From Chloroflexi bacterium 44-23 (GTDB lineage: Bacteria > Chloroflexota > Anaerolineae > Anaerolineales > Anaerolineaceae), in NCBI GenBank assembly GCA_001899005.1, contig MKUW01000021.1, positions 1 to 64,000 of the forward strand: DNA of 64,000 nt, in the 5' to 3' direction. How positions within the stretch are numbered: the first letter of the stretch is position 1; each line of letters starts with the position of its first letter. A program made the translations under genes and the position numbers. Below are positions 20,450 through 57,269 of this stretch, in pieces. The notes below the pieces were generated by a model, which was given only the letters and a program-made list of their open reading frames with translations, was not told the origin of the DNA and made no database searches.

Positions 20450-21300
20450 CTTTCCCTCCTGGACCATTCATACAATGCTTTAGTTAAAAAACTACCTAAA
20501 TTAGCTCATCCGCAAAGAAACTATTGAAATAAAACGGGATTCAGTGGAATGACCATGATGAAAATCTCAATTTGGTTGTTCTGATTTCCAATTTTTGGAT
20601 CTATTTATACAAGGTGGACAGAATTCGCCCCCACTTAAACAGTATACGAATAGCCCGGATTGAATGAAAAGTGACATTTTACAAATTATTTATGACATTT
20701 ATCTATTATTATTTTATAACGATAGTGTTGCGCACAATAAAGTTCTGAAAATAGATCAATATTTTTTAGTTCCATCACAACCAGCTATTACCGTTCATAA
20801 CGGTAATCCGATTCAATTCAGAAAAAGTAAATTTAGTAACAATACATTAAGAGGCTTTCTCCTCTACTGAGTTTCAAAAGTACATTCAGTAATTTATATC
20901 TTGCTACTATACGCTTGATGTTGAATCACTTTCGGGTATTAGCAATTCCGATTTTGACAATCTTTTGGATCAAATCTTAATCTTTTGTGAAAATCAGATC
21001 TGTTATTCCTCTATTAGCGGTTTTTACTTTATGGATAAATGCCATTTCATTCTTATTAGACAACAATTAACTTAATTTATTATCTTGGATTTTCGGTCCT
21101 TTCGTTCAAATTCACTTAATCTCAAACAAGGAACCTGGACTTTTGATTAAAGCATGACCCATAATCCTCGCCTGTAAATACACTAGCAAAGCCAGCGGTC
21201 TATCGCAATAGAATAATTTGCAAATGGGTAATTGTTACAAATGATTCCAGAATTAGGAAATACGTTGAAGCATTTGAAGTTTTATTAACTTAGAGCCTGA
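20450..21300. other. AT-rich intergenic gap without a supported gene
   Basis: About 850 bases between the divergent giant RHS gene and the first pilus leader. It is visibly AT-rich, and the only frame of any size (20664-20870 +, 68 codons) has no ribosome binding site or recognisable sequence. It probably holds the promoter of the RHS gene and may hold an element boundary. I see no tRNA, inverted repeat or attachment site that I could defend. Confidence 0.6.
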
Positions 21301-21304: not shown

Positions 21305-21420
21305 AAAATTATTGCCCCTCTAGGATAGACACCATTGCTTCATTATACTTAGCTTAGAAAATAATTTTCCCACCAATCGTTGGCCGAACAAGACATTCTA
21401 TGTATCTTTTTCGGCTTTTA
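21305..21420 (+). promoter_or_regulatory. Leader element copy A: promoter plus hairpin before the first pilus operon
   Basis: Contains TTGCCCCTCTAGGATA, a -10-like TATACT at 21344-21349 seventeen bases after TAGGAT, then AATCGTTGG and a hairpin with arms GCCGAA (21383-21388) and TTCGGC (21410-21415) followed by TTTTAATTT. Copies B and C share the same order of parts, and the arm sequences differ but still pair. The hairpin plus T-rich tail resembles an intrinsic terminator placed in a 5' leader. Confidence 0.65.
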
Positions 21421-21446
21421 ATTTAATCAAAACACAGGAGTTGACT

Positions 21447-22157
21447 ATGAACCGCATCATTCATTTTTCGATTGGACTCATATCCCTCGTTATTGCTTTA
21501 GGGGCAGGTTTTTACGGACGCAATCTCTACCTAAAAGAAGTATCCACTTACCAGGTGCCTGTACCGATCAGCGCTATCCCAGCTTTTACCGTTCTCAATG
21601 CGGACATGTTCCAAATGCGAGAAATGCCGCGCACGATGGAATCCTTACCCTATTACCAATCCATTCAGAGTCTGAGTGAAAAGATTAGCACAGTTCCGCT
21701 GCCAGCTGGTCTGCCGGTGGCTCAGGTTAACGCAGTTCCCATCGCACAATTTCGTCTTGCGGATGCAGCTTTTGAGGTGCTATCCATCCCGGTTGAACCT
21801 GTCTCTGCTGTTGGTGGACAGATCCGCATTGGAGAACGAATCAATCTTTATCAGGTGCTTCCCGAGAAAATCGACCCTGAGAACACAGCTATTTCGGCCA
21901 ACGATCAATCTACCTTCAAGGTAGAGCTCATCGCCAGGAGTGTATTGGTAGTAGATGTCCGCAATGCACAAGGTGTCGCTGCGGAATCCAACCAGAAGAG
22001 TGAGGATAACTCAACATTCGGGGGCAGCCCTCAGAACGAACAAGTCCAAATCCTTACCCTGGCGGTGGAGCCAGAAGATGTGGACGTCATTCTCACTGCG
22101 GTTGCAGCAAGCAAAAAACAAGGTGGATTGTTATGGTCAACCCTGGCACTTCCTTGA
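21447..22157 (+). CDS. cpaB: CpaB/RcpC-like Flp pilus assembly protein
   Basis: 236 residues from the ATG at 21447, which has AGGAG six bases upstream (the TTG at 21441 is less likely). One N-terminal membrane segment at about residues 5-25 is followed by a SAF-type domain (VPVPISAIPAFTVLNADMF; GLPVAQVNAVPI) and a second domain with SIPVEPVSAVGGQIRIGERINLYQV shape. CpaB/RcpC proteins support Flp pilus assembly at the membrane or wall. It is the first gene after leader A, and cpaF overlaps its 3' end by 25 bases. No outer-membrane secretin gene follows, as expected in a monoderm. Confidence 0.75.
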   Translation: MNRIIHFSIGLISLVIALGAGFYGRNLYLKEVSTYQVPVPISAIPAFTVLNADMFQMREMPRTMESLPYYQSIQSLSEKISTVPLPAGLPVAQVNAVPIAQFRLADAAFEVLSIPVEPVSAVGGQIRIGERINLYQVLPEKIDPENTAISANDQSTFKVELIARSVLVVDVRNAQGVAAESNQKSEDNSTFGGSPQNEQVQILTLAVEPEDVDVILTAVAASKKQGGLLWSTLALP

Positions 22158-23488
22158 TCCATCCAACAGCTCCACCTGCCATTCAGCCCTTAGACCAATC
22201 CGATCTGCTCCTGATTGAACGGGCCCGTGAGGAATTGGTACAGCGTGGAATCAACCCACCTAGCTGGCGAGAAGCAGACTCAGAAAAACGTCGTCGTTTC
22301 TATGATGAGGTGCGCTCTATCCTGATTGATCAGGGCGAGAATCGCAGCGTCGTCAATCGCAATGCACAAATTATCACGGATGCATTGTCCGGGGTGGGAT
22401 TGCTTGATCAGTTGCTGCGTGACCCATACGTGGAGGAAATCTTCGTCCGCAATGGGGAGGTAGCAGTGGAATATGATGGGAGCTTTTATCATCTGGGGAA
22501 ACTGGCTGATGACACTTATTTTGAAAACCTCGCTGTGCATGTTGCCGATCAAGGCGGCGCTACTTTGCGCGGAGATCGCCCAGCAGTGTTAATCGATCTG
22601 CCAGGGGGAGAACGGTTTACCGCCATCGTTCCGCGCCTGTCAACTGAGGGGACTGCAATCAATATCCGTACTTTCGGACGGCGTGTTCGCACATTGGTGG
22701 AAATGGAGCAATCCGGCACTTTTGCCAAATTTGATCCGACATCAATCGGATTAATGCAGACATTTACCAGCCCTGCCGAAAAAGATGCCAAGTCGGAACT
22801 GACCCGTCGGATCCAATCTCTAAAAGACACACCAGATCGATTTCTAGCCTGGATGGTAGCTAACCTGGCTGGCAGCCTGATGATTGCCGGTGAAATGGGT
22901 TCTGGCAAGACGACTTTACTCAACGCTCTCTCAGGTTTCTTGCCTGTATCTGCACCGATTGCTGCGCTGGAAACCTTCCGAGAATTGGAAATCCAGCACC
23001 CTTTTTTATTGCGTACTGTAGCTCCAGCTGAATTATCACCTGGCACGCCTGGCGTGACCCTGGATTGGGTCCTAAACGTCATTTATACCCGTATGAACCC
23101 GGCAGCCATCCTGGTGGGTGAGGTGGTAGGAAATGAGGCACTGCAATTCTTAAAAGCCACCTGCCTGGGGCGCAAAACATTGACAACCATTCACGGTGGG
23201 ACGATAGAAGAGTCCCTGATGCGCCTTGAACAACTTGCCCTGGCTGCAGCGCCGGAATTGGGATTGTCTGCTGTTCGCTCGATGGTTGCGATGGGATTGG
23301 ATGTTGTTGCTTTGATGGGAAGGGTCAACCGATCAGGAAGAGTTCAACGCACCTTACAGGCCATCGCCACGATTAAAGGAATTAATGCGAAAGGTGATTA
23401 TTGTTTGAACTACCTTTACCGGGCAGAAGGTGATGAGAACATCCCTGTCTTTGAACAAGCCTATCACCAGTTGGAGGGAATGAAATGA
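22133..23488 (+). CDS. cpaF: CpaF/TadA pilus assembly ATPase
   Basis: 451 residues of the type II/IV secretion ATPase family. The N-terminal domain (residues ~85-200) has LLRDPYVEEIFVRNG and ERFTAIVPRLS. Walker A is GEMGSGKTT at 253-261 and the Walker B/acid region is AILVGEVVGNEAL near 326, followed by the His box TTIHGGT. It powers pilin polymerisation together with TadB and TadC. The start overlaps cpaB, indicating coupled translation. A role in DNA transfer is possible for this superfamily, but the partners here point to a Tad pilus. Confidence 0.9.
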   Translation: MVNPGTSLIHPTAPPAIQPLDQSDLLLIERAREELVQRGINPPSWREADSEKRRRFYDEVRSILIDQGENRSVVNRNAQIITDALSGVGLLDQLLRDPYVEEIFVRNGEVAVEYDGSFYHLGKLADDTYFENLAVHVADQGGATLRGDRPAVLIDLPGGERFTAIVPRLSTEGTAINIRTFGRRVRTLVEMEQSGTFAKFDPTSIGLMQTFTSPAEKDAKSELTRRIQSLKDTPDRFLAWMVANLAGSLMIAGEMGSGKTTLLNALSGFLPVSAPIAALETFRELEIQHPFLLRTVAPAELSPGTPGVTLDWVLNVIYTRMNPAAILVGEVVGNEALQFLKATCLGRKTLTTIHGGTIEESLMRLEQLALAAAPELGLSAVRSMVAMGLDVVALMGRVNRSGRVQRTLQAIATIKGINAKGDYCLNYLYRAEGDENIPVFEQAYHQLEGMK

Positions 23489-24147
23489 ACCGCTTCTTAA
23501 AGTGGATCCTTGTCGTTGTATTTCTACTTGCTGTCGTAGGATGCCTGGTTTTTGTTTTCGGGAACCTGAATGCCTTGATGAAGGTGGCCCCAGCGCCGTC
23601 AAGAGCAGATTATTCCGAAGATGTGAATCATAAGAACGAGGAAATCGAGGGCAAATTGCGGAATGCCCCCTGGCAAGGGTTGCGTTTTATCCGACAAGAA
23701 CGAACGTGGCGTTTTTATGGGGTAGCAGGTGAAACCAAACAGATCGATTTTATCCAGCCGATGAGCTTGGTGAAAGTCTACTATCTCGAGGCAGATGGTG
23801 ACCTTAGCTTCACTTGGGCAGCTACTGAAATTCATTTTTCTGGAAAACCGACATACTCTCTGATTTCCCATCCTATCCAAGAAGGACAGTTGATTGGAGT
23901 TCAACTGAAAGGGGATTATGTCACTCAAAGTGGCGTTTATTGGGAGGATTGCGAGTCTGATTATTGCCGCCTGGCGCAAATGATTGACACCATGATTGTG
24001 CTGGATGATGTGGGAACCGGACTCACGAACGGGTTTATTCGTTATGGTTGGGAACCGCCAACTTATCCGATGTATGGTTTTTTATGTTGGCAAATCATCT
24101 CCACAAATGATGAACCGGATCAGTCGTCATTAATTGGTCAGGAGTGA
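23485..24147 (+). CDS. Unknown single-pass membrane protein of the pilus operon
   Basis: 220 residues. A hydrophobic segment at residues 6-28 (WILVVVFLLAVVGCLVFVF) is followed by an extracytoplasmic domain with a probable CESDYC cysteine pair near residue 155. It starts within the cpaF stop region (4-base overlap), so it belongs to the operon. I recognise no family. It may take the place of a missing Tad component such as TadZ or TadD, but nothing in the sequence says so. Confidence 0.7.
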   Translation: MNRFLKWILVVVFLLAVVGCLVFVFGNLNALMKVAPAPSRADYSEDVNHKNEEIEGKLRNAPWQGLRFIRQERTWRFYGVAGETKQIDFIQPMSLVKVYYLEADGDLSFTWAATEIHFSGKPTYSLISHPIQEGQLIGVQLKGDYVTQSGVYWEDCESDYCRLAQMIDTMIVLDDVGTGLTNGFIRYGWEPPTYPMYGFLCWQIISTNDEPDQSSLIGQE

Positions 24148-24150
24148 CTT

Positions 24151-24714
24151 ATGGAACCTTGTGATTATCACAAAGATATTCATCCAGTCACCAATCCTGA
24201 ACCCGGACACCAGGAATTCCAGGATTGTGATCACCCCTTAGCCAGAAAAGATGGAAAGGTGATCTTGAGCCGGCATCTGATGTCAGTCAGTTTAGGACGG
24301 TGGCTGCGTTCATTTGAGATTGTTATTTATAAGGATGGAAATCTGCAAAACTTGACGATTGAAAATCTAGTTCTTACAACCCTTGGCAAACTTTCACATG
24401 ACCCGGATCATAAGGCGGCAATTTTGATTTGCCCATATTGCGGAGAACCATTCAAAGTCACCCTTTCTCATAAAAATCGGCGGATCTACCATAACGATAC
24501 CTGCCGAAGGTTGGCCGATCGGAAATTTATCATTGATCCAGAAGAATTACACCAACTGGTATGGGAAATTCCAACTACTCAGATTGCTGCCTTATACGGA
24601 GTTTCTGATAAAGCGGTTGAAAAACGCTGTAGGGCGTTAGGCATCCCTAAACCTCCACGCGGGTACTGGACCAGACCGGATCGTATAAAAGGTTCTCCGG
24701 AGGAAGAGGCATGA
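24151..24714 (+). CDS. HNH-like/zinc-finger/HTH DNA-binding protein inside the pilus operon
   Basis: 187 residues with AGGAG six bases upstream. Residues ~25-85 resemble a degenerate HNH fold of the kind found in phage homing proteins (HPLARKDGKVILSRH ... KDGN, IENLVLTT). A zinc-binding stretch CPYCGEPF with a further Cys (NDTCRR) follows. The C-terminus is a helix-turn-helix (TTQIAALYGVSDKAVEKRC) ending in PPRGYW, seen in uncharacterised DNA-binding proteins. The canonical HNH histidines are not clearly present, so nuclease activity is doubtful. It overlaps tadB by 4 bases and may regulate the operon or be a passenger. Confidence 0.6.
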   Translation: MEPCDYHKDIHPVTNPEPGHQEFQDCDHPLARKDGKVILSRHLMSVSLGRWLRSFEIVIYKDGNLQNLTIENLVLTTLGKLSHDPDHKAAILICPYCGEPFKVTLSHKNRRIYHNDTCRRLADRKFIIDPEELHQLVWEIPTTQIAALYGVSDKAVEKRCRALGIPKPPRGYWTRPDRIKGSPEEEA

Positions 24715-25595
24715 GTCCGTTTCGATTCTTAATTGATGCAGGAGTAGTTTTCCTGGCGGGCGGCATCTTTCTGGCTTTGTACAATACGCTGTTATCTGGC
24801 GTAGAAATCATAGTGAAAACCTGGCGCAGGACATTTATGTCTTGGGCAAGCCGGCGGCTGCGAGCCATGGGTGTCATTCAAGATAAGCCATATCAGGCAC
24901 AACACGAATTGGATTGGAAACGATTGGCATTGCTCATTGCGACACCTATGTTGGCAATGGCTGTCCATGATTTGATGCTCTCACCGCTTGTGCTGGTGAT
25001 TGGGATGATCATCCTGATTTGGATTAACTTTCAGCAAAAACAGATCGAGCGCGCACAAGTCAATGAAGATGCTGAAGCAGTTGCCTTGCAAATTCGATCA
25101 TTGATGAGTGTAGATCACTCTCTTTTGAATGCTTTGATGAAGGTCAAATTGCCTATGGGAGTGATGAACTACGCCATCGAGCAGGTTGCAAGCCGCTTAC
25201 GAATGTATCAACCTCCTGCCCAAGCTGCACAGGCATTAAAAGGATTACCCGGAAATGTCACATCAAGGCTTTCGGCTTTGATTGCTAATAACGCTCAGCT
25301 GACAGAAGAAATTCAGGAAGAGTTGCTTGTCTCACTGGAACAGGAAGCTCACCGTCAAAAACTGGTGCGTTCAAAAACCCGCCAGACCCTTTCACTTGTT
25401 CGAGGAACAATCCGGCTGCTACAAGGTGTAGTTGCCGCTTCCGTTTCCTTCGTGGTGCTTTCCCCAGCCTGGCGTGATTTTTTCCTGCAAGATGCCCCCC
25501 ATCGGGTGTTACTGGCAGTCATGATTTGTGGAGTCGTGCTGGCCAGCCTGTATTTTGAGTACGAAGTCTACCAATTGAGTTTTGGGGAGGTCTAA
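24711..25595 (+). CDS. tadB: TadB-like pilus inner-membrane platform protein
   Basis: 294 residues. N-terminal membrane segments (FLIDAGVVFLAGGIFLALY; ALLIATPMLAMAVHDLMLSPLVLVIGMIILIW) are followed by a cytoplasmic helical region (QIRSLMSVDHSLLNALMK ... EEIQEELLVSLEQEAHRQKLVRSKTRQTLSLVRG) typical of the T2SS-F domain, and by C-terminal membrane segments near residues 245-290. Start and upstream stop overlap as ATGA. Together with TadC it forms the membrane platform that the CpaF ATPase turns. Confidence 0.75.
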   Translation: MSPFRFLIDAGVVFLAGGIFLALYNTLLSGVEIIVKTWRRTFMSWASRRLRAMGVIQDKPYQAQHELDWKRLALLIATPMLAMAVHDLMLSPLVLVIGMIILIWINFQQKQIERAQVNEDAEAVALQIRSLMSVDHSLLNALMKVKLPMGVMNYAIEQVASRLRMYQPPAQAAQALKGLPGNVTSRLSALIANNAQLTEEIQEELLVSLEQEAHRQKLVRSKTRQTLSLVRGTIRLLQGVVAASVSFVVLSPAWRDFFLQDAPHRVLLAVMICGVVLASLYFEYEVYQLSFGEV

Positions 25596-25597
25596 GA

Positions 25598-26434
25598 ATG
25601 GATACCTTTTCCCTTGTGGTGGGCTTTAGTCTGGCAATCGGAGTGGGCATGATTGCCAATACCGTAATATCCATTTTATTTGAAACAGGAAGGAGGCTTA
25701 GCCGTCCGATACAGCGTGGCCGTTTACACGCTCTCGGACTCGGGACCAAATATCAAAGCGAAGAGAAAAGAACAGAAGAAGCAATTTTGGGGTTCGGCGA
25801 TATTCCATGGGGAGCTCTTTATGCGGGTACAGCCCTGATTGGACTGATCCTATTGGCAATCTTAGGACCGCAGCTTCCCAGCATCCGGTTGGGTTTCCTG
25901 GCATTGCCAGGTCTGGTGTGGTTAGCCAAACGCTATTTGATCCAACAGCGAAAACGATTTATGGTCGGACTAATTCGACAGTTTCTGATCGATGTGCGTC
26001 TGCATATGAGCTTGCAAGGTTCACTCTTACTTGGATTGGAGAGTTTGGCAAAGACGACCATCGAAACTTCAGTTGTATACCAACGTCTTCAAAAACGGCT
26101 GAAGGGTAGTTCTGCTCGCAGTGGGTTGGATTTACTTAACCAGTTAGCTGACGATTTGAGATCTCCCCAGTTGCTTCGCGTTGTACAACGTGTCCAGGCT
26201 GCTCAACAATCCGGAGGAGTCTCCGATGTTGATCAAGCGATTGCCAGTGTCATCGAAGAATTGAACGAAGAGATCGGTTACCAATCCGAAGAACAGATGC
26301 AGCGTTTGCCCCTGCGCATCACCTTACTGGCTATGCCGTTTCTTCTTGGCCCAATTGTTATCTTGTTGTTTTACCCGCTTGTCGACCGCATCCTGAAAAC
26401 TCTCTCCGGGGTGTCGATTGGCGGCGGTTTCTAA
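25598..26434 (+). CDS. tadC: TadC-like pilus inner-membrane platform protein
   Basis: 278 residues with GGAGG seven bases upstream. It has membrane segments at the N-terminus (SLAIGVGMIANTVISILF), near residues 70-105 (GALYAGTALIGLILLAIL; GFLALPGLVWLA) and at the C-terminus (LPFLLGPIVILLFYPLVDRIL after ITLLAM). Between them is the T2SS-F-like cytoplasmic part with LLNQLADDLRSPQLLRVVQRVQAA and a Gln/Glu-rich EELNEEIGYQSEEQMQRLP, the usual TadC signature. It follows tadB by two bases. Confidence 0.75.
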   Translation: MDTFSLVVGFSLAIGVGMIANTVISILFETGRRLSRPIQRGRLHALGLGTKYQSEEKRTEEAILGFGDIPWGALYAGTALIGLILLAILGPQLPSIRLGFLALPGLVWLAKRYLIQQRKRFMVGLIRQFLIDVRLHMSLQGSLLLGLESLAKTTIETSVVYQRLQKRLKGSSARSGLDLLNQLADDLRSPQLLRVVQRVQAAQQSGGVSDVDQAIASVIEELNEEIGYQSEEQMQRLPLRITLLAMPFLLGPIVILLFYPLVDRILKTLSGVSIGGGF

Positions 26435-26482
26435 CCTATTTTTCAAAACCCCGCTCAAAGTGCGAGGAAAAGGAGCCTGTTT

Positions 26483-26653
26483 ATGTTGTTCGATAAGAAA
26501 GCATCCGAAATTCCACAGTTTGTTGTTGTTCTGGCGATCGCCGTTGTCTTGGGAGCAGTGGCTATCTGGGCCATCCTGAGCAATATCGGTACCCAGGGCG
26601 GCAGCATTGCGGACTGGATTAGCAGCATCGCTGTGCCGGCTGCACACCCATAA
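26483..26653 (+). CDS. Flp-type mini-pilin 1
   Basis: 56 codons, too short for most gene callers. The protein starts MLFDKKASEIPQ and continues with the hydrophobic helix FVVVLAIAVVLGAVAIWAIL, then GTQGGSIADWISSI. Size, a short charged leader and one long helix fit Flp/TadE-type class IVb pilins, although the usual G-x-x-x-x-E-Y is not present. It has an AGGAG about nine bases upstream and lies in the pilus operon before a strong hairpin. Confidence 0.65.
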   Translation: MLFDKKASEIPQFVVVLAIAVVLGAVAIWAILSNIGTQGGSIADWISSIAVPAAHP

Positions 26654-26668
26654 TTTTTTAGCAAACCT

Positions 26669-26702
26669 GGTAGCTGGTCTTTCATCCGGAAGACCAGCTA
26701 CC
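26669..26702 (+). promoter_or_regulatory. 13-bp perfect hairpin between two mini-pilin genes
   Basis: Arms GGTAGCTGGTCTT (26669-26681) and its exact complement at 26690-26702, with an 8-base loop. No T-run follows, so this is more likely a 3'-end stabiliser or partial terminator that raises pilin mRNA over downstream genes than a full terminator. Confidence 0.75.
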
Positions 26703-26765
26703 AACCATTAACACTCCGCTTCCTCTGTAGAAGTAAAGAGGAGCGTTCCAAGGAGAGGAGGAATT

Positions 26766-26912
26766 ATGTTACATGATCGAAATGGACAGAGCGTTGTTGA
26801 GTATATCGTTGTCCTGGCGATCTTCATCGCTCTAGTTGGCGGCGCGCTCTGGGAAGTCTTTTCCACTTTAAAGGTCAAGTTCAATGATGTCAACGCCGAA
26901 ATTGGGTCTTAA
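26766..26912 (+). CDS. Flp-type mini-pilin 2
   Basis: 48 codons: MLHDRNGQSVVEY, then the helix IVVLAIFIALVGGALWEVF and a short tail ending EIGS. The GQS-x-x-EY motif is the classic Flp prepilin processing site and start of the helix: the peptidase cuts after G, with E at +5. GGAGGA lies about seven bases upstream. The next gene starts inside its 3' end. Confidence 0.8.
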   Translation: MLHDRNGQSVVEYIVVLAIFIALVGGALWEVFSTLKVKFNDVNAEIGS

Positions 26913-27330
26913 ATCAGATTCTAAGGGGCAGGCAGCGGTTGAGTCCTTGTTAGTTCTGATGGTGCTTGCACTGGTCATTTTTGGTGGTATTGAACTCAGT
27001 CGTGGAGTGGCCATGAGGCAGGCATTGGACAGCAGTGCCGGCGCAGCTGTTCGCGCTTTATCCCTAGATCCTTCCCAATGGAGTTATGCAAAGAACTTGA
27101 TTCAAGAAGGGACGAACCAAAATGTGATGGGTACGGTTGAGGCTACGACCATCCAAGTTTTTGATGCTGCCGGCACTCCACGGAGTTCTGCCTGGCTTTC
27201 AGGCAGCCCATTTGGAACTGCTTTTATCTTGGAGGCTTCTGCACCATTTCAGGCAGATATTCCCTTCCTTTCTGAACCCATCATGACAATACGGGTTCAG
27301 CATTGGGGAATCGTGGAGCGATATCCATGA
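26884..27330 (+). CDS. TadE-like pseudopilin
   Basis: 148 residues (start at 26884 or at the second ATG, 26887). The leader KSDSKGQAAVESLLVLMVLALVIFGGIELSRG has the GQAAVE processing motif followed by a ~20-residue helix. The rest is a small soluble domain. TadE-like proteins are minor pilins of the Flp system. It overlaps mini-pilin 2 by 29 bases and the next gene by the ATGA at 27327. Confidence 0.75.
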   Translation: MMSTPKLGLKSDSKGQAAVESLLVLMVLALVIFGGIELSRGVAMRQALDSSAGAAVRALSLDPSQWSYAKNLIQEGTNQNVMGTVEATTIQVFDAAGTPRSSAWLSGSPFGTAFILEASAPFQADIPFLSEPIMTIRVQHWGIVERYP

Positions 27331-27827
27331 TTATTGAAAGAAAAGCACAATCCGTGGTGTGGGGATTACTATCCATCCTCGTGCTTGTGGTCATTGCAGG
27401 TGGGCTCGTGGATATTTACAGGCTGTATGCAGCGCGTAATTGGGCTTATTCTGTAGCGCAAGAGGCTGCGCTTGCCGGTGCTCCCCGAGGAAGAGATTGG
27501 GATGCTGTTCTCAATACTGGCTTTATCCAACTGGATCAAGCCGTGGCCAGTAATGAAGCCCAAAACGTGGTTCATTCTGCTATGCAAACTCGTGGAATTA
27601 TGGGGTACGCCTCGTCAATTCGAGTTTTACCTGATGCTTTCGGGGGTTCGATATCCGGATTTCCACCCCGTCCAGTTCGCTTGGGAAATGGATTGAGCGA
27701 TTGGTCAAGTAATGAGCCTGCTGTTGGAGTCTATTTGGAGGTTCCAATCCAATGGACGATTCTGAACATTTTCGGAATCGAATTGAAAACCGTTCGGGTA
27801 TTTGCATCCGCTGGGGTTGTCCAATGA
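27327..27827 (+). CDS. TadE/TadG-like minor pilin
   Basis: 166 residues from the ATG at 27327, which overlaps the preceding stop as ATGA; an upstream in-frame ATG at 27303 would add eight residues. MIIERKAQSVVWGLLSILVLVVIAGGLVDIYRLYAARNWA is a short basic leader followed by a membrane helix and the ARNWA-x-x-x-AQEAALAGA pattern of TadE/TadG N-termini. The soluble part is about 120 residues. It overlaps the next gene by the same ATGA arrangement. Confidence 0.65.
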   Translation: MIIERKAQSVVWGLLSILVLVVIAGGLVDIYRLYAARNWAYSVAQEAALAGAPRGRDWDAVLNTGFIQLDQAVASNEAQNVVHSAMQTRGIMGYASSIRVLPDAFGGSISGFPPRPVRLGNGLSDWSSNEPAVGVYLEVPIQWTILNIFGIELKTVRVFASAGVVQ

Positions 27828-29638
27828 AAAAATTTATCTCAAACCTGATGAAACGTAAGAAAACATTTCTGGGAATTATCCTTGCCATTGTGATTGGTTT
27901 GGTGATCACGATCTCTGTGCTGGCGGATTATGGCCATCCTATCGTTTCTTATAATCGAAATCCCGTTTCGATCACATTCCCCAGAGCTGGAAGAATTGTT
28001 TTATGGAATGTCATCACCTCAAGCTCACCGGGGTATTTTTCGCGCTATTACTTCATCCGTAATGGCTGCAGGGTAGGGCAGAACTGCACCTATATGGATG
28101 TGATTAACAATCAAACAGTATTGACCCCGATCACGGTTGCAGCGGGTGAGACGATCCAGATCAGAGGTTGTGATTGTTATGGAGGTAATTGCGGTTCCGG
28201 CGGGTGTGCTAACCCGCATGTGGGTTGGAAAACGCCTCATCACGATTACTTTTGTCCAAATTACTTCTATTCGCAAAACTACAATCCAAGCGCCGGTGGT
28301 AGAGACTTTACCAGTTTAATGACAGCATTCCTCGCTTCCGGGGATACCATTATCGGCACTCCACAATGTTGGGGGGATTGGGATGAAGATAATAGTAATG
28401 GCGGTTATGACCACGACTTTGAAGATTTCGTTTTAATCTGGGCTTATCGAGATACCTTTACTGGCTACCATGACGGAGCCTCTGGACCGGTTCCTCAATC
28501 CCAATGTCGGGCTTACGGCTGGGTGATGCAAGATGCTGCTCCAGGGTTGGATATTAATTTTCGCATCCTGGTAGATGGCAATTCGGTAGCGAGTGGAGTC
28601 GCTAACCAATATCGAGCGGATCTGACCGGAACATGCACGGGCGGCACTTGTGGGTTCACTCAAGATTTATGGGGATTGATCTCGCCCAATATTCAACACA
28701 CCATACGCGTTCAGGGTCAAAATCCCTATAATTCCTCCTGGTTTGATCTCTCAGGAACAAATAAAACGATTCGATGCTCACTCCCGCCCAGCGTGGATTT
28801 GAAAGTGAATAACCAGGATGGACCAATCCGCCTGACTTCTCCCGCTCAATATCTGTTGAGTTGGACATCCAGTAATGCAGATACCTGTACTGCCTCAGGA
28901 AGCTGGACTGGAACGAAGGGTCAGTCCGGCTCGACGAATTACACTGGCATTACCACCGGTATTTACACCTATACGTTGACATGTTCCAATCCCATTGGTT
29001 CCGCTTCAGATAGTGTCACTGTCATTGTCTACAATCCACCAGCAGTGGATTTGAAGGTTAACAACACCGATGGTCCTCTGACATTAATTTCTCCCGCAAG
29101 CTTTACCCTGAGTTGGATCAGTCGCGATGCGACCAATTGTTCAGCAGCCAGTTCAAATGGCAGCTGGGGTGGGAATGTGGTCTTAGCTGGAAATCAGCCT
29201 ATGAGTGGAGTCCCGACTGGAACGCACACCTATACAATCACCTGTTCTAATCAGTATGAAACTGCTAGCGATTCAGTCACGGTTATTGTGATTGCACCAC
29301 TTCGCGGGACAATAGCGGTCACATATGCGCGTTTATTGTTATTTGCTCCTAGCCTGGATCAACCCGCACAGACCCTAACTGGAGAGGTAACAGGTGGTGT
29401 TCCACCTTATTCTATTTTGGTGCAAGTTCGGGCACCATCGGGAGCTCAATTTTCTTTGAACCGCAATGGCTCAACCTGGTCTGTGACTCCTGAAAATTCA
29501 GGAGATCTCAATTTTGGCACCACAGAAGAGGGTATCTGGACCGCATGGGCTGATTTAACGGATGATTTTGGCCAGACATACCGAACACCCAGCGTAATTT
29601 GGGAGGTGGCATGGCATCCCGTGCATGGTCGTCCGTAA
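27824..29638 (+). CDS. Secreted/anchored protein with two Ig-like repeats, pilus-operon product
   Basis: 604 residues from the ATG at 27824 (ATGA overlap with the previous stop). A membrane or signal helix (FLGIILAIVIGLVITISVLA) at about residues 15-34 is followed by an unknown Cys-rich domain, with CDCYGGNCGSGGC near residue 110 and an acidic DWDEDNSNGGYDHDFEDF stretch that could bind calcium. Two ~85-residue Ig-like repeats come next, each with VDLKVNN-x-DGP, SW-x-S and SDSVTVIV, and then a further beta domain. It may be a pilus tip or surface adhesin exported with the pilus, which is inferred from the operon. Confidence 0.65.
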   Translation: MKKFISNLMKRKKTFLGIILAIVIGLVITISVLADYGHPIVSYNRNPVSITFPRAGRIVLWNVITSSSPGYFSRYYFIRNGCRVGQNCTYMDVINNQTVLTPITVAAGETIQIRGCDCYGGNCGSGGCANPHVGWKTPHHDYFCPNYFYSQNYNPSAGGRDFTSLMTAFLASGDTIIGTPQCWGDWDEDNSNGGYDHDFEDFVLIWAYRDTFTGYHDGASGPVPQSQCRAYGWVMQDAAPGLDINFRILVDGNSVASGVANQYRADLTGTCTGGTCGFTQDLWGLISPNIQHTIRVQGQNPYNSSWFDLSGTNKTIRCSLPPSVDLKVNNQDGPIRLTSPAQYLLSWTSSNADTCTASGSWTGTKGQSGSTNYTGITTGIYTYTLTCSNPIGSASDSVTVIVYNPPAVDLKVNNTDGPLTLISPASFTLSWISRDATNCSAASSNGSWGGNVVLAGNQPMSGVPTGTHTYTITCSNQYETASDSVTVIVIAPLRGTIAVTYARLLLFAPSLDQPAQTLTGEVTGGVPPYSILVQVRAPSGAQFSLNRNGSTWSVTPENSGDLNFGTTEEGIWTAWADLTDDFGQTYRTPSVIWEVAWHPVHGRP

Positions 29639-30579
29639 TCCGTATTCTATTAGCCGCCCTTACCGTGATGACCACTGCCAGTTGGGAGACAACATCTGTG
29701 AAGGCTGATAGCGGTGGAACCTGCCAGATGGCTTATGGCTTAACCCCAACATCTATTCCAGATTGGTTAATTCCAGTAAGCGGGAACACGAACCTAGCCA
29801 CCGCCAATCGTTATGATGTTTTGGCTGCTGAGTTATTGTCATCCGGATTAGTCGATGGTATTTCCTGCCCAGCACAAGGGTTGAATCCTGATGGCTCCGC
29901 AAATGGTTGTGGAATCGAACATTCTAAAGACCAAGTGCTCACATGGCAGAATCAATTTGACTCGGTGATTCTCTCCTCTTCTCAGGCTGCAGAGTTGCCC
30001 CCAAGGGTAGTTAAAGCTGTCATTGCCGTTGAATCGCAATTCTGGCCAGCGGCAAATTGGACTCTGGGTGAGATTGGATTGGGTCAGATGACCACATATG
30101 GTGCAGACCTTGTTTTGATGTGGCGGCCGGCTTATTTCCAAACCATCTGCCGGCAAACATACGGTGAAGTAGGATGTACTACCCAATATCAATTCCTGGA
30201 TTCTTCAACGCAATACCTATTACGCGGTATGGTTTTACGAGATATCGAGGCCACCTGCCCGAATTGTCCAGGGGGTGTTGATATTGAAAAAGGAAACCAA
30301 GCGATACGAGTTCTGACTGAAACCCTCAATGCAAGTTGTTTGCAATCGACCAGGATTTTCAATTTGGCAACCGGCAAACAACCAGCTGCGTTTTTAAGTT
30401 ATGACGATTACTGGCGTCTGGTTCTAGCAAATTACCATGCCGGTGCTGGGTGTGTTTATCAGGCTCTTCGAAAAACCGGAAATCCGAACAGTTGGAATAG
30501 CATTGCAGCCAATTTTTCATGCGGTTGTGCAAGTGGCGCTGAATATATTCGACGTATCGAAGGGCAGATCAAGCCGTAG
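29611..30579 (+). CDS. Lytic transglycosylase-like protein (SLT fold)
   Basis: 322 residues from the ATG at 29611 with GGAGGT just upstream, overlapping the preceding gene. It has a signal peptide (SVIRILLAALTVMTTASW). The catalytic region reads VKAVIAVESQFWP with the expected Glu, then GEIGLGQMT, and later an NYHAGAGCV motif, all typical of Slt-family muramidases, which cleave the glycan strand of peptidoglycan. Many cysteines suggest disulphides. Wall-opening enzymes of this kind usually accompany pili or conjugation machines that must cross a thick wall. Confidence 0.8.
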   Translation: MASRAWSSVIRILLAALTVMTTASWETTSVKADSGGTCQMAYGLTPTSIPDWLIPVSGNTNLATANRYDVLAAELLSSGLVDGISCPAQGLNPDGSANGCGIEHSKDQVLTWQNQFDSVILSSSQAAELPPRVVKAVIAVESQFWPAANWTLGEIGLGQMTTYGADLVLMWRPAYFQTICRQTYGEVGCTTQYQFLDSSTQYLLRGMVLRDIEATCPNCPGGVDIEKGNQAIRVLTETLNASCLQSTRIFNLATGKQPAAFLSYDDYWRLVLANYHAGAGCVYQALRKTGNPNSWNSIAANFSCGCASGAEYIRRIEGQIKP

Positions 30580-30592
30580 AAAAAGAGGTGTT

Positions 30593-31159
30593 ATGGATTG
30601 GATTATTTTTGGCCTTGTTGTAACCTGGTTGGGAATCGTATCTTGGTTCGATATTCGAAAAAGTGAAATACCCCACAGCGCCTGGGTGGTTATTCCTCTC
30701 ATTGGCGCAGGTCTTTATCGGATCTGGCAAGGGGATTGGACATTAGTTCTGCTTGCTGCTGTAGTTGCAGCGGTTAGTGAACGGGATAGGATATCTCAAG
30801 CATTTGGCTGGGAAGAGGTAAACCGAATAATCACCTGGCTCCCATTACTATTTTTGGGAGCATCCCTTTCGATTCAATCTTCACCACTTTCCGCTCTGGC
30901 AATCATTGGCTTCTGGGCTGCCTGGGAATTGAAGTGGTGGGGTGGCGCGGATGCCGTTAGTGCAATTACGATCTGTCTTATCTGGCCTGAGATTTTCTTT
31001 ATCATGTCGTTTCTGGTTATTCACTTAATCGTTGTGATTGCTTCGGGATTGGTATCTATGGTACGGGAAAAGAAAATCATGCTTCACCGTTTACCGGGAT
31101 TGCCGATATTGTTAGCCTCGGTGTTAATCTTGAAAGTAGGGATAATCGTTTTAGGCTAA
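30593..31159 (+). CDS. Prepilin peptidase, A24 family (TadV/CpaA-like), copy 1
   Basis: 188 residues from the ATG at 30593 with GAGGTG upstream. Multi-pass membrane protein. The two aspartates of aspartic prepilin peptidases are in SWFDIRKSEIPH (residues ~15-26) and WWGGADAVSA (~residue 118). It removes the leader of Flp pilins. It is the last gene of the first pilus operon, and the gene downstream is convergent. Confidence 0.85.
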   Translation: MDWIIFGLVVTWLGIVSWFDIRKSEIPHSAWVVIPLIGAGLYRIWQGDWTLVLLAAVVAAVSERDRISQAFGWEEVNRIITWLPLLFLGASLSIQSSPLSALAIIGFWAAWELKWWGGADAVSAITICLIWPEIFFIMSFLVIHLIVVIASGLVSMVREKKIMLHRLPGLPILLASVLILKVGIIVLG

Positions 31160-31174
31160 TCGGCTATGTCTGGA

Positions 31175-31567
31175 TTATGCTTTTGTATTCAATACAAAAC
31201 TTTCGATGTCTTCTTCTCTTACGCGGACTGCTTTACCAATTCTCACGACTGGAATTTCACCAGTTTGCATCAACCGATAGGCACCGGATTTGCTTATTCT
31301 CAGGTATTTCGCTACTTCCTCGGCTTTCAGTAGCCGTTTTTGAGGATATGTGAGAGGTGTAGCTATTTCTATGGAGGTTTTTTCAGTGGCTTGGTTTGGA
31401 ATAACCCGAAGTAGATTCTTAACCCCTCGCCGTTCACGCAATTCGCCCACCTTTTCACCAAGAGCCCACAGCAAGAACTCATTGAGAGTGATTCCCTCGA
31501 CCTTTGCGTAAACTTCAATTTCTTTTATCAGTTCGTTCGGAATGATTACTTCCACTTTATGTATCAT
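31175..31567 (-). CDS. Excisionase-type HTH DNA-binding protein
   Basis: 130 residues, the only minus-strand gene between the two pilus operons. Residues ~5-55 look like a ribbon-helix-helix or antitoxin-like segment (VEVIIPNELIKEIEVYAK ... LNEFLLWAL). The C-terminal ~50 residues are a MerR-like HTH_17/excisionase domain (LLKAEEVAKYLRISKSGAYRLMQTGEIPVVRIG). Such domains occur in transposon excisionases and in small regulators. Its start is about 40 bases from leader copy B, which it could control. Function is inferred. Confidence 0.7.
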   Translation of the reverse strand: MIHKVEVIIPNELIKEIEVYAKVEGITLNEFLLWALGEKVGELRERRGVKNLLRVIPNQATEKTSIEIATPLTYPQKRLLKAEEVAKYLRISKSGAYRLMQTGEIPVVRIGKAVRVREEDIESFVLNTKA

Positions 31568-31608
31568 CTAACCTCCATGACAACGGGAAAAGGGGCTGCT
31601 GCTCCCAT

Positions 31609-31730
31609 CAAGAAATTGGCCACCTTGGATAACTTCATTCCGTCATTATAATTATTAATAGACAATCTTTGATTAATCGTTGGCTGGACAGAACCTTCTG
31701 GGCGCAGAAGTGAGTCCAGCTTTAATTTTT
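31609..31730 (+). promoter_or_regulatory. Leader element copy B: promoter plus nested hairpins before the second pilus operon
   Basis: ATTGGCCACCTTGGATA is followed by TATAAT at 31647-31652, then AATCGTTGG. Outer hairpin arms are GCTGGAC (31683-31689) and GTCCAGC (31714-31720). An inner hairpin pairs CTTCTG (31695-31700) with CAGAAG (31705-31710). TTTAATTTTT follows directly. The arm sequences differ from copies A and C but pair perfectly. Confidence 0.7.
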
Positions 31731-31768
31731 AAGCACTTGCACTGATACAGAATGGATAGGAGCGCCTT

Positions 31769-32269
31769 CTGATCGCTAATTTCGCCGTTTTAGCCCTGTT
31801 TTTTGCCTGTATGGTCTACGATCTCCGCAATCACCAGGTCCCCACGCCATTAACCGTTGGCGGGATGGTTGGTGCAGGTGTGTATGGCCTTTTTAATGGC
31901 TTATGGGCTCCAGTATTGTTGATGATTGCATTGACACACGTATCAGATTTCAACCCCCGAGAAAAACGTCTGGCATTCGCCCTCACGCTGTCCGCATTTT
32001 CTGCAATTTTTCAACCTTTAGCGGCGTTGATCTGTCTTCTCATCCTTGTCGTGTGGGTGCTTTGGGAATTTGGTGTTTTAGGAGGTGCGGATGTCAAGCT
32101 GATCATCACTGCTGCCCTGGTTCTTGGAAATCCAATTTTTCTGATCCCGATAACAGTTGTCGGTGGAGTGCAGGGCGTAATCGCGAGCCTTCAGAAAAAG
32201 AGGGAAATTCCTTTTGTCGTATCAATTTTTTGTGGGACATTGTTGTTCGTTCTCTATCCATATTTCTAA
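31769..32269 (+). CDS. Prepilin peptidase, A24 family, copy 2, probable CTG start
   Basis: The first ATG (31811) would begin at MVYDLRNHQVP and cut off the membrane helix that normally precedes the catalytic Asp. The frame is open back to a TAG at 31757, and a CTG at 31769 with AGGAG six to seven bases upstream gives LIANFAVLALFFAC, a proper helix. The catalytic motifs are YDLRNHQVP and GGADVKLI. With this start it has 166 residues. It is the first gene after leader B and presumably processes the pilin encoded next. Confidence 0.7.
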   Translation: MIANFAVLALFFACMVYDLRNHQVPTPLTVGGMVGAGVYGLFNGLWAPVLLMIALTHVSDFNPREKRLAFALTLSAFSAIFQPLAALICLLILVVWVLWEFGVLGGADVKLIITAALVLGNPIFLIPITVVGGVQGVIASLQKKREIPFVVSIFCGTLLFVLYPYF

Positions 32270-32291
32270 AGAAGGAAGGAGGTGATTGGCA

Positions 32292-32438
32292 TTGCGTTTC
32301 CTAAATGATAATCGGGGAATTGAGTCGACTGAGGTCGCATTGATCATTGCAGTGGTTGTTCTGGTGGCTTATGGTGCATATCGGTTGCTGGGTCAAAATA
32401 TCGCTGCCATCGTGACTGATATTGCTGGGAAAATATAG
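32292..32438 (+). CDS. Flp-type mini-pilin 3 (TTG start)
   Basis: 48 codons from a TTG at 32292, nine bases after AGGAGG (a TTG at 32286 is too close to it). MRFLNDNRGIESTEVALIIAVV has the G-I-E-S-x-E prepilin cleavage motif with Glu at +5, then a long helix and a short tail ending AGKI. It lies between the second prepilin peptidase and a TadE-like gene. Confidence 0.7.
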   Translation: MRFLNDNRGIESTEVALIIAVVVLVAYGAYRLLGQNIAAIVTDIAGKI

Positions 32439-32447
32439 TCAAATCAA

Positions 32448-32494
32448 TGGTCTGCCAGCAATGCTCCCTTCGGGGATGTTCCATAAACTGGCAG
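32448..32494 (+). promoter_or_regulatory. Hairpin between mini-pilin 3 and the TadE-like gene
   Basis: CTGCCAG (from 32452) pairs with CTGGCAG about 30 bases later, enclosing a smaller CCC-TTC-GGGG type hairpin. It parallels the hairpin after mini-pilin 1. Confidence 0.5.
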
Positions 32495-32518
32495 ATCAAT
32501 TATTCCTCAAGGAGGATT

Positions 32519-32929
32519 ATGAGATTTATTAAAGACACTCGTGGGATGGAATTGCTTGAGGCTGCAATTACAACTCCAATTGCGATCATGGTCATGTTGG
32601 CGATTGTTAACCTGGGGATGTTAGTCTATGCCCAACAGGCAGTGCAAGCCGCAGCCAGGCATGGTGCGCGTATGGGAAGTGTGGCGCAGCAATGCCCAGC
32701 CTGTTATGCCATGAGTGGAGCAAGAGACGCAATCGCCCAGGCTGGGATTCTGGAAAATACTTCGGTCAGTGTCTTGGCTCCTGGAGGAAGTGCCGGCAGC
32801 ATTTTAAAGATTCAAGTCAGCGGCAGTGTACCCAACTTTATGGCTCCTCTGACCAGCCTGTTTCCAGGTTTGCCAGGGCAGACGTTTACTGTCCGTGCTG
32901 ATTCAACATTTCGGCAAGAAGGCTGGTAA
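32519..32929 (+). CDS. TadE-like minor pilin
   Basis: 136 residues from the ATG at 32519 with AAGGAGGA directly upstream; the frame extends further 5' but lacks a site. DTRGMELLEAAITTPIAIMVMLAIVNLGMLVYAQQAVQAAARHGARMG is the TadE-domain signature: processing Gly, Glu, helix, then the AVQAAARHGAR motif. CPACY supplies a cysteine pair. It belongs to the second pilus operon and is followed at once by TadG. Confidence 0.8.
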   Translation: MRFIKDTRGMELLEAAITTPIAIMVMLAIVNLGMLVYAQQAVQAAARHGARMGSVAQQCPACYAMSGARDAIAQAGILENTSVSVLAPGGSAGSILKIQVSGSVPNFMAPLTSLFPGLPGQTFTVRADSTFRQEGW

Positions 32930-32930
32930 T

Positions 32931-33365
32931 ATGCTGTGGCGAGATCGACGTGGCTATTCAATGACTTTCTGGGCGGTATTCATTGGGTTAGTGATGATTC
33001 CTGCCCTGGCATTGGCTATTGAACTCGGACGGTATTTTTATGCCATTTCAGAAGTGGCAAAAGCAGCGGATGCTGCAGCAGTTGCCGCTTCCGCTGAGAT
33101 CAATCAGCAAGTTTTTCAAGATACCGGAAGTCTTGTTCCCACTTCAAGAACCTGGGGGAACGCCCAGGCTTATGTGACTTCAAATACAGCCAGCTTATCC
33201 GCTAAAGGGGTGCATGCCTTTGTTACAGGAATTCAGGTTAGTGGGGGAGACAACACTGTACGAGTCTCTGTGTCAGCAGATTTATCTATCCTGTTTCCAT
33301 CAGTAGTTCCCAAGGTGCTTGTCACTCAAACCGGAGTGGCCAAATTACGTGTCTTCACACATTGA
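32931..33365 (+). CDS. TadG-like pilus protein, short form
   Basis: 144 residues from the ATG at 32931, one base after the preceding stop. DRRGYSMTFWAVFIGLVMIPALALAIELGRYFYAISEVAKAADAAAVAASAEIN is the TadG N-terminal domain (helix followed by the A-D-A-A-A-V-A-A stretch). It lacks the long von Willebrand-type C-terminal part of full TadG proteins. Last gene of the second pilus operon. Confidence 0.75.
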   Translation: MLWRDRRGYSMTFWAVFIGLVMIPALALAIELGRYFYAISEVAKAADAAAVAASAEINQQVFQDTGSLVPTSRTWGNAQAYVTSNTASLSAKGVHAFVTGIQVSGGDNTVRVSVSADLSILFPSVVPKVLVTQTGVAKLRVFTH

Positions 33366-33399
33366 TCTATTTTTCCCATAAAGGAGCGTGGCATTATTG

Positions 33400-33525
33400 A
33401 AAAGAAATTGACCATCTAGGATAAGCCCCTTGTAATTGATATACTCTGATTGACAACTCAAAAATCCTTCATCTATCGTTGGCCGGACACAACCCACTGG
33501 GATCTGTCCGGCATTTTCTTTTTAA
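33400..33525 (+). promoter_or_regulatory. Leader element copy C: promoter plus 8-bp hairpin before the DNA-processing genes
   Basis: ATTGACCATCTAGGATA, seventeen bases, TATACT at 33440-33445, then CTATCGTTGG and a hairpin with arms GCCGGACA (33482-33489) and TGTCCGGC (33505-33512) followed by ATTTTCTTTTT. Same architecture as copies A and B. Confidence 0.7.
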
Positions 33526-33562: not shown

Positions 33563-34087
33563 ATGATAAATGATGTAGTTCTAGAAGGAATCGTGGTACG
33601 TGATCCATGGAAATTTATGGATGACCTGTTCTTCCGGTTGGTGATCTATCGAGACAGTGATCTACCTGCAAAGAAATTGGATCTGGAACGTGATGCAGGT
33701 GATTACATCAACGTCCGGGTCAATGGCGGAGCCAACGGGCTGATCCATATTCGCCGCGGCATGCGATTGCGAGTGCATGGTTTCCTCCAGTCTCGGGATT
33801 TTCGCGAAAGCTTGGAAGAATTTATCAACAAAGCGCGGAAATCCAAAAACTGTACTGACCTGGCTGTGGATATCAAAGCATGCGATTTGAAACAAAACCA
33901 GGTATTCATTGACCGAAACGTGGTAGAGGCGGTCGCCAGGCGCATTATTGTGTTGGATGCTGCCGCACCAAACGAGAAAAAAGCCAGATCAATTGAGAGA
34001 GTTACGACTGACAACCACGCTGAAGCGAGAAATGATTCAAGTGAGATGGTATCTGCTTCTGGAGAAATTGACGCAACTGCTGAATAA
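33563..34087 (+). CDS. SSB-like OB-fold protein
   Basis: 174 residues with AGGAGG upstream. The N-terminal ~100 residues follow the single-stranded-DNA-binding pattern: INDVVLEGIVVRDPW, FRLVIYRDSD, DYINVRVNGG, IRRGMRLRVHGFLQSRDFRESL. The C-terminus is acidic and low-complexity but lacks the usual SSB tip ending in P-F. It is probably a specialised SSB paralogue used in element replication or transfer, distinct from the ssb at 35801. Confidence 0.65.
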   Translation: MINDVVLEGIVVRDPWKFMDDLFFRLVIYRDSDLPAKKLDLERDAGDYINVRVNGGANGLIHIRRGMRLRVHGFLQSRDFRESLEEFINKARKSKNCTDLAVDIKACDLKQNQVFIDRNVVEAVARRIIVLDAAAPNEKKARSIERVTTDNHAEARNDSSEMVSASGEIDATAE

Positions 34088-34668
34088 CTCATCCTATCAA
34101 CAAACCGAAGGTGAGCATGGGTAATCCTCTTTTTGGATTACCTGCAAAAGGCCTAAGCGTGAAAAAAATTGAGAGATGGATAAGTTCAGACCTGAAGTGA
34201 ATTCTTAATACTTCAGGGTACGTGGAGGATCACAAGATGACGTCCGAATCCCTTGCATAAAGCAAGCTGGATTTCGAGAACAGTCATCGTAAGCTCCCAT
34301 TGGTATTGGGAGCGAGTGATCCTTCTTTTTATTTCCGGGAGTCCCCGGATAGTGGGCTTGCACTTTAACAAACAACCTTTTCCTCCCAGGAGGCGTAAAG
34401 GCGTGCTGAGAAGCAGAAAGGTTCATATCACAAGGAGAAAACAATATTGTGTGGGTGGGATGAATGACTCATCCCACCCATATACTCTCCCATCCATAGG
34501 GCTGCAAATGTCAGCGATGAAGAAAAAGTCTTCACCATTGTCGTTTTCTGCCCTGTGTTTATTCACGGGTAGCAAATAACGTCGGAACGTTCATGGTGCT
34601 TAGCCATGAGTTGATCTTTCGTATCGACCTTTTGTTAATCAACGTCGGATATTTTCACAAGGAGGATT
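34088..34668 (+). promoter_or_regulatory. 580-bp noncoding region with several strong hairpins
   Basis: No supported gene. Hairpins seen: GTAATCC/GGATTAC (34121-34141), GCTCCCA/TGGGAGC (34293-34313), a perfect 12-bp stem TGGGTGGGATGA/TCATCCCACCCA (34452-34480) and TCATGG/CCATGA near 34590-34610. The region ends at the ribosome site of the Rad52-like gene. It may encode a structured RNA or hold several processing sites. Confidence 0.6.
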
Positions 34669-35766: not shown

Positions 35767-35800
35767 GAAAACCATATACTAAAGAGAAAGGAAAAACACA

Positions 35801-36220: not shown

Positions 36221-36252
36221 CCAGAGTCAAAACGCACCGGTGAATCACAACG

Positions 36253-36280
36253 AAGGACATGCCATTCAGGGCATGTCCTT
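36253..36280 (+). promoter_or_regulatory. 11-bp perfect hairpin after ssb
   Basis: AAGGACATGCC (36253-36263) and its exact complement at 36270-36280, 6-base loop, followed by TCTCATT. It lies between ssb and the next ribosome site. Confidence 0.7.
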
Positions 36281-36314
36281 TCTCATTCCTATTGAAAGAA
36301 CACAGGAGGAACAC

Positions 36315-37176: not shown

Positions 37177-37191
37177 ATCACAAGACCCCAA

Positions 37192-37229: not shown

Positions 37230-37247
37230 ATTTCACAGGAGACAGAC

Positions 37248-37967: not shown

Positions 37968-37984
37968 TTTACAAGGAGATGAAT

Positions 37985-38419: not shown

Positions 38420-38425
38420 ACCAAT

Positions 38426-38460: not shown

Positions 38461-38482
38461 CATAAAAACAAGGAGATCTTGA

Positions 38483-57267: not shown

Positions 57268-57269
57268 AG

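Follow-up and report, generated by a model that had tools for sequence, protein, structure and literature searches.

Why should two pilus operons and a DNA-processing operon of one bacterium begin with the same short leader? The question arises from a 64,000-nucleotide stretch of Chloroflexi bacterium 44-23, a member of the Anaerolineaceae (G000:C21:1-64000, from an assembly of 4.18 Mb), here called the window, in which a leader consisting of a promoter-like part and a terminator-like hairpin occurs three times. Our analysis points to a promoter-attenuator regulon as the probable answer: each operon would be held off by a terminator until a factor lets RNA polymerase through. The preliminary description of the window had placed the three copies at 21305-21420, 31609-31730 and 33400-33525, and each was confirmed at its place. 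Their parts, the hairpins taken from sequence and fold and all others from sequence, are as follows.

21316-21327, + strand: box CCNNCTNGGATA of leader copy 1 (class C), at the -35 position
21344-21349, + strand: -10 box TATACT of copy 1
21375-21383, + strand: AATCGTTGG motif of copy 1
21383-21415, + strand: terminator-like hairpin of copy 1, arms 21383-21390 and 21408-21415, T-rich tail 21416-21427
31620-31631, + strand: box of leader copy 2 (class B)
31647-31652, + strand: -10 box TATAAT of copy 2
31675-31683, + strand: AATCGTTGG motif of copy 2
31683-31720, + strand: terminator-like hairpin of copy 2, arms 31683-31690 and 31713-31720, T-rich tail behind
33412-33423, + strand: box of leader copy 3 (class A)
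33440-33445, + strand: -10 box TATACT of copy 3
33474-33482, + strand: TATCGTTGG motif of copy 3
33482-33512, + strand: terminator-like hairpin of copy 3, arms 33482-33489 and 33505-33512, T-rich tail 33513-33524

The gap between box and -10 box, given earlier as 16-17 bases, measured 15-16 bases in the three copies. The two covarying stem positions were real: a C-G pair is replaced by T-A in copy 2, and copy 1 has A-T where the others have G-C. Folded singly, the copies gave z values of -2.6, -2.3 and -2.9.

The three copies are members of a large leader family without a record in Rfam. A covariance model of the three detected three further copies in their own genome (E = 1.8e-11, 2.5e-7 and 4.6e-5), so that the likeness goes beyond chance. 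The six strong matches (worst E 4.6e-5) lie at 21295, 31599, 33391 and 219614 of contig C21 and at 66947 and 73680 of contig C10; a seventh match had an E of 5.5. At E ≤1 the same model matched 14 of 61 genomes, the own genome included. Forty-three copies were parsed for their anatomy, with two further matches of the three-copy model left outside, and dropping two identical cores gave 41 distinct copies. A model of these 41 found leaders in 34 of 147 genomes of the Anaerolineaceae. In a sample of the class (396 genomes) and one of the phylum (400 genomes) it matched two genomes each, the window's genome and G010, both of this same family; searches over 40 genomes were run with stricter filters, by which weak matches are lost. 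In the stretches searched, the copies scored at least 28 bits and the next matches at most 18.6 bits; among the latter, L078 (18.2 bits) is a site in G020 with the promoter only. Three weak matches to the RNA half in other loci scored 20.5-36 bits. Covariance models were needed because BLASTN with copy 1 returned nothing but copy 1 itself from its own genome at E <0.7. No Rfam 15 family matched the whole window at the gathering score, and in eight leader-bearing loci at E ≤1 only microRNA models appeared, all at L014 4-74, outside the leader of that locus; a known RNA family was excluded as identity of the leaders, as no Rfam match fell inside them. A search of the open-access literature by title and abstract gave, among the matches listed, no paper on the leader or on such elements in Anaerolineaceae. 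Two leaders, G004:C14:2034-2211 and G032:C21:2137-2328, have no core gene of their class behind them in the list of open reading frames (ORFs) and are probable relics; one of them has no near gene on the same strand, the other precedes a non-core gene. G088 carried five class E leaders on five contigs, suggesting several elements in that genome.

Leaders of type I, which comprise classes A to D, run in one order: the CCNNCTNGGATA box, 15-16 nucleotides (nt), TATACT or TATAAT, 22-42 nt that often hold ACAAC..AATA, then (A)ATCGTTGG, the stem and a T-rich tail. Exceptions to the distance between box and -10 box are one parsed copy with 13 nt and the copy of G010, which has no box. The stem arms read GCCGGACA and TGTCCGGC, the loop contains ACCNNCTGG, and the 3' spacer before the second arm is very variable. 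Apart from the missing box of G010, the 41 distinct copies have box, spacing, AUCGUUGG, stem, a CC..CUGG loop and T tail in common, with variants in each, and the CGT of CGTTGG was invariant in 41 of 41. The stem was paired in 94.8% of cells, compared with 22.6-43.0% after sliding by one to three columns, in line with the conserved RNA-level leader proposed earlier. Double changes affected four of the eight stem pairs, in eight cells altogether; one of 500 shuffles reached the covariation score and ten reached the count of doubly changed pairs, all of these being descriptive values for mutually related copies and not independent tests. The 12-base tail contains 70% T and 23% A, as against 37% T and 37% A in the preceding leader, which upholds the description of the hairpin as terminator-like with a T-rich tail. 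Hairpin energies averaged -19.2 kcal/mol, with a range from -28.3 to -10.6. Two marks of an intrinsic terminator attenuator were found, namely a stable hairpin followed by a T-rich tract and a place between a promoter predicted from sequence and the first gene. The RNA ahead of the stem is short in type I, presumably leaving little room for a leader peptide.

The promoter half and the RNA half of the leader could be told apart. A scan of 1.256 Mb for box plus -10 box yielded 74 matches, compared with 4.0 in local shuffles; 58 of them were followed by CGTT or CGTC plus the start of the stem, eight coincided with E, F, A or B sites already known, and eight were apparently unrelated. In Bellilinea and in one metagenome-assembled genome (MAG) of Levilinea, the box is replaced by TTGACA-18 nt-TATAAT, with ACGTTGG, hairpin and T tail retained. 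At three further loci the model matched in its RNA half alone. Ahead of the class A gene of an Anaerolinea MAG (L161) stand a sequence resembling a promoter and a hairpin followed by a T tail, but the letters are not kept, and in two other MAGs (L169 and L170) the stem differs and the loop CCUACUGGA is retained. From these cases, selection on the hairpin, the tail and the loop motif seems to be distinct from that on the promoter.

The position of the leaders was followed by a junction test, which measured how far the first genes A1, B1, C1 and D1 lie from the final gene of the module ahead of them. A leader was present at 42 of the 43 split module junctions, the sole leaderless one being that of class B in G020, and was absent from ten fused junctions, nine of them CpaE-CpaB overlaps of 4 nt and one an E-D gap of 32 nt. 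Outside these 10 and 43 stand 18 first genes without an upstream marker; 17 had a leader and one (G010, class B) had none. In G162, CpaE and CpaB are 95-96% identical to the fused pair of the window's genome, yet they lie about 1 kb apart, with other genes and a leader in between. Leaders can therefore have been gained or lost recently, along with cargo. A tree of 61 leaders (one without class) required five changes of operon class, whereas each of 500 shuffles required 25 or more; for the genome label, 51 changes were needed, which is no better than after shuffling (mean 47.8). This grouping by operon and not by genome ruled out repeats copied within an element. As judged from the tree, the leaders are positional orthologues kept alike over divergence, which is as expected if shared trans-acting factors read them.

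The preliminary description had one element heading pilus and DNA-processing operons. This proved right, and the family is wider, comprising classes A to D of type I and classes E and F of a second type. Type II leaders combine a similar promoter box with G(G)UCGCUGAU...GGAGCG[A/G]CC...GGUCGC and a T-rich tail. Their middle segment is complementary to the first segment, as an antiterminator, and to the last, as a terminator, so that two hairpins could compete. In 19 sequences that hardly vary, 99.2% of the cells of one helix and 100% of those of the other were paired. Class F leaders and two other copies, L235 (G020:C41) and L237 (G089:C62), have AUCGU[U/A]GG at the start of the terminator arm, in the form AUCGUAGG or AUCGUUGG, which is the type I motif in the same place; most class E copies read AUCCUUGG there. 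The type II model, made of 17 class E and two class F copies, gave 46 matches in 26 of the 147 family genomes, and 15 loci were inspected in addition to those read earlier. L235 and L237 are themselves further type II leaders; the leader of L235 precedes an excisionase-type helix-turn-helix (HTH) gene, suggesting a seventh class.

In the mechanism that we favor, each leader would be a promoter-attenuator cassette heading one transcription unit of an integrative, probably conjugative element. Transcription would start from a sigma-70-like promoter, the conserved box at the -35 place being a likely activator site, and the RNA, about 65-105 nt long in type I and about 145 nt in class E, would meet an intrinsic terminator shortly ahead of the first gene. 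Without a signal most polymerases would stop there and the element would remain silent; transcripts arriving from cargo upstream would be stopped too. On induction, a factor reading AUCGUUGG, the hairpin or the loop motif ACCNNCUGG might let polymerase pass, or the factor might alternatively recognize the promoter box, as phage Q does. The pilus, transfer ATPase, DNA-processing and DnaB genes would thereby be expressed together. For classes E and F, the upstream G(G)UCGC could pair with the 5' arm of the terminator and constitute a possible built-in antiterminator.

Several observations weigh against this mechanism. The start site, termination, read-through, the factor and co-induction are predictions from sequence comparison. 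Covariation of the type I stem is only moderate and its letters are themselves conserved: the eight doubly changed cells do not exceed the 1-9 counted in slid versions, and the observed number of further pair types is reached in 116 of 500 shuffles. The weakest hairpin of the set, at -10.6 kcal/mol, is that of copy 1 in the window, and the class B copy of G020 has kept its promoter box with no hairpin detected. The fused junctions, with gaps of -4 to 32 nt, are too tight for a leader, so its absence there is nearly forced. RNAalifold returned no conserved second structure for type I but the terminator stem alone; in truncated transcripts the 5' arm was paired, irrespective of partner, to a varying extent (0.11-0.62, mean 0.42), and an internal antiterminator was rejected for this type. 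As for the alternative pairing in classes E and F, its segments are near-invariant, with zero covariation signal, and in 17 class E folds the terminator form was at equilibrium 9.8-14.7 kcal/mol better than the form with a forced upstream helix. The search for an encoded antiterminator identified none among the genes examined: NusG-family genes occurred in 12 of 12 genomes searched (nine of them with leaders) but not on the element contigs read, which excluded a NusG paralogue of LoaP or RfaH type as the element's antiterminator, nor did a Q- or N-type antiterminator turn up in the proteins scanned, which represent a subset of the element's genes.

Candidate regulators are a LuxR-type protein of 147 amino acids (GerE, 3.1e-12; G000:C21:70468-70911) in the element's integration module, a protein of 138 amino acids (69942-70358 of the same contig) whose relative in G017 has a weak phage-regulator match (0.0099), and excisionase-like HTH proteins. 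Going further, the leaders might form a new antitermination system of mobile elements in the Chloroflexota, in which one element or host factor reads AUCGUUGG beside the terminator hairpins and jointly releases at least six operons, classes E and F acting as sensor switches that time transfer; we put this forward tentatively.

Could the hairpin have another task? The nearest upstream ORF of at least 90 amino acids was divergent for 28 of 62 leaders, on the same strand for 31 and missing for three. The 28 divergent cases excluded termination of the upstream operon as the sole role. The stem ends 14-48 nt ahead of a putative Shine-Dalgarno sequence, which was sought from 12 nt on, and predicted pairing of the latter was 0.656, compared with 0.652 in shuffled leaders (higher in 20 of 41). 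With no signal above shuffled leaders, occlusion of the Shine-Dalgarno sequence was excluded as well. As the hairpin lies between promoter and first gene, transcripts from the leader promoter must cross it. Because of this, and with neither the upstream-terminator role nor the Shine-Dalgarno role supported, regulated or fixed attenuation remain.

Fixed attenuation would mean a leaky, unregulated terminator that keeps expression of the core operons low and insulates them by blocking read-through from cargo, with all regulation exerted through an activator at the promoter box. It fits the place of the leaders at module boundaries, where cargo is often inserted upstream, the LuxR-type (GerE) regulator of the integration module, and the case of Tn916, whose T1 is an experimentally shown insulator terminator (PMC11658703). 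A pure insulator would, however, be expected upstream of the promoter, and the hairpin is downstream in the 43 parsed copies. In addition, AUCGUUGG and the loop are conserved beyond the needs of a terminator; recognition by a factor is favored for this reason, and we consider fixed attenuation unlikely, if still deserving of attention.

A second option takes the hairpin, no terminator at all, as a stabilizer of the mRNA 5' end, a processing site or an element of translation control. Stem-loops at the 5' end are able to stabilize mRNA, and this hairpin does lie in the 5' untranslated region near the ribosome-binding site, but neither the T-rich tail nor a Shine-Dalgarno pairing equal to that of shuffled leaders is in accord with such a role, which appears improbable to us. 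Still less credible is that the leaders encode small trans-acting RNAs, the downstream genes being expressed by leakage or from other promoters: compact units of promoter, RNA and terminator would suit this, yet they precede the first genes of split modules, and the 14-48 nt from stem to putative Shine-Dalgarno sequence offer scant room for another promoter. That the inverted repeat acts as DNA, as a regulator-binding or recombination site between modules, would account for stem letters conserved beyond pairing and for the leaders' place at module and cargo boundaries, but we regard it as the least plausible, since type II uses a different stem with AUCGU[U/A]GG in the same place and L161 has its own hairpin and T tail in the leader of class A, so that structure and tail persist while letters change.

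Regulated attenuation at each operon, our preferred reading, can be compared with known systems. In phage lambda, Q acts through qut, a DNA site near the promoter that is followed by a leader and then a terminator. The order of parts is the same here, although no Q-type protein was matched and several leaders per element contrast with one late promoter. Cis-acting leader RNAs are also found in put of HK022 and in the EAR RNAs; unlike these, the RNA conserved here is itself terminator-like and its role in antitermination is only proposed. BglG/RAT-type and riboswitch attenuators have competing antiterminator and terminator hairpins, as the leaders of classes E and F would, but the latter had no Rfam match and have no known ligand, and no BglG-type protein was among those scanned.

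Alike in logic are two mobile elements. Tn916 has insulating terminators T1-T3 and the antiterminator RNA canT, with canT antitermination experimental (PMC11658703), and pLS20 uses the ConAn1 protein and conAn2 RNA to pass more than 20 internal terminators in one long operon (PMC8955417). Terminator-antiterminator control of transfer genes has been shown for these two and is suspected more widely (PMC11658703). Like Tn916, the present element is integrative, and its transfer genes would lie behind intrinsic terminators, need antitermination and be insulated from outside transcription. However, canT is, in that account, most likely one cis-acting processive RNA from one promoter, whereas here each core operon seems to have its own promoter and terminator; moreover, antitermination is experimental there and deduced here. 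As in the conAn system, conjugation genes would be under intrinsic terminators limiting spurious transcription, but pLS20 has one long operon with the system at its start, and no counterpart of ConAn1 or conAn2 was identified here. The leaders would thus share their logic with Tn916 and pLS20 and appear to differ in having a leader per operon, two architectures, placement at split junctions and another phylum; they do not seem to be a member of these systems. Comparative sequence suggests that the same logic operates in another phylum but is spread over the element, which is about 100 kb long: promoter-terminator leaders of one family stand at the head of at least six of its transcription units and at nearly every split junction examined. 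This suggests that the genes for the pilus, DNA handling and replication are kept silent and then released jointly. AUCGUUGG with its hairpin offers an exact sequence handle for finding the regulator of these little-known Tad/HerA-type elements, which carry BREX and other defense genes.

The genes behind the three leaders of the window, and one between them, are listed here.

21447-31159, + strand: operon C, with RcpC/CpaB, a T2SSE (TadA-type) ATPase, TadE, TadE/G-like and an SLT transglycosylase
31175-31567, - strand: excisionase-type HTH_17 gene (profile match), divergent, between operons C and B
31769-33365, + strand: operon B, with an A24-like prepilin peptidase and a Flp-like protein (both below the Pfam cut-off), TadE and TadE/G-like
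33563-39643, + strand: operon A, with a small conserved protein without family match, Rad52/22, SSB, RadC, DnaN and small unknown proteins

Assignments to A24, Flp, T2SSF and CpaE are partly below Pfam cut-offs. In operon C, this applies to the Flp-like protein and the A24 peptidase, and TadB/TadC were named by gene order and look, without a Pfam match. The A24-like peptidase of operon B starts by reading at ATG 31811, with an in-frame CTG at 31769. Class D operons encode a protein without Pfam match, a T2SSF-like and a CpaE-like protein. The class E operon encodes a protein of 1162 amino acids with a HerA/VirB4-like ATPase domain, CpaB, a CpaE-like protein and a TadA-type ATPase. The 1162-residue protein (L050:2903-6388) matched NCBIfam NF033849, 'serine-rich protein', and its C-terminal part resembles a HerA-type ATPase. 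Class F heads a gene for a DnaB-like helicase (Pfam match in G000); in six further copies and in G017 the leader is followed by codons for MPDP or MSDP, although for G017 the gene list shows no long ORF behind the class F leader.

Judging by its genes, the host of the leaders is an integrative element; in G017 it spans some 100 kb, its ends being approximate. There, one contig carries leaders A to F and genes for two tyrosine recombinases, for an excisionase-like HTH protein and for ParA. Relatives of the two recombinases occur on four and five other contigs, and the G000 relative of a neighboring G017 gene has a DnaA N-terminal domain. A tRNA-Met adjoins the integrase gene in G017 (180310-180382) and in G000:C10; a search around the integrase of the window's element (L043) gave no tRNA gene. 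The element is probably conjugative; it encodes a HerA/VirB4-like ATPase. A phage origin was rejected on one protein only, that of the class A first gene, which had no relative in viral contigs. G000 apparently has a second element, perhaps split over two contigs (G000:C21:203432-236283 and G000:C10:38014-73934), with modules E, D and C on C21, where D is fused to C, and B, A and an integrase beside tRNA-Met on C10.

BREX, NACHT, RHS and other genes occur as cargo beside or between the modules. On the - strand of the window, 46743-63948 holds a NACHT-type protein and a BREX-like cluster (BrxL, PglZ, Eco57I-type methylase), defense-type cargo that adjoins the core modules. The contig starts with the window, and no module D stands ahead of leader copy 1. 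Upstream of this copy, 6767-20467 encodes a protein of 4566 amino acids with repeated segments, RHS-like by reading, and RHS matches were obtained in the neighboring ORFs 82-1962 and 3082-4467. Finally, 39762-41860 encodes an oxidoreductase with an N-terminal metal-binding-like domain, mercuric-reductase-like by reading only, which adjoins a MerR regulator.

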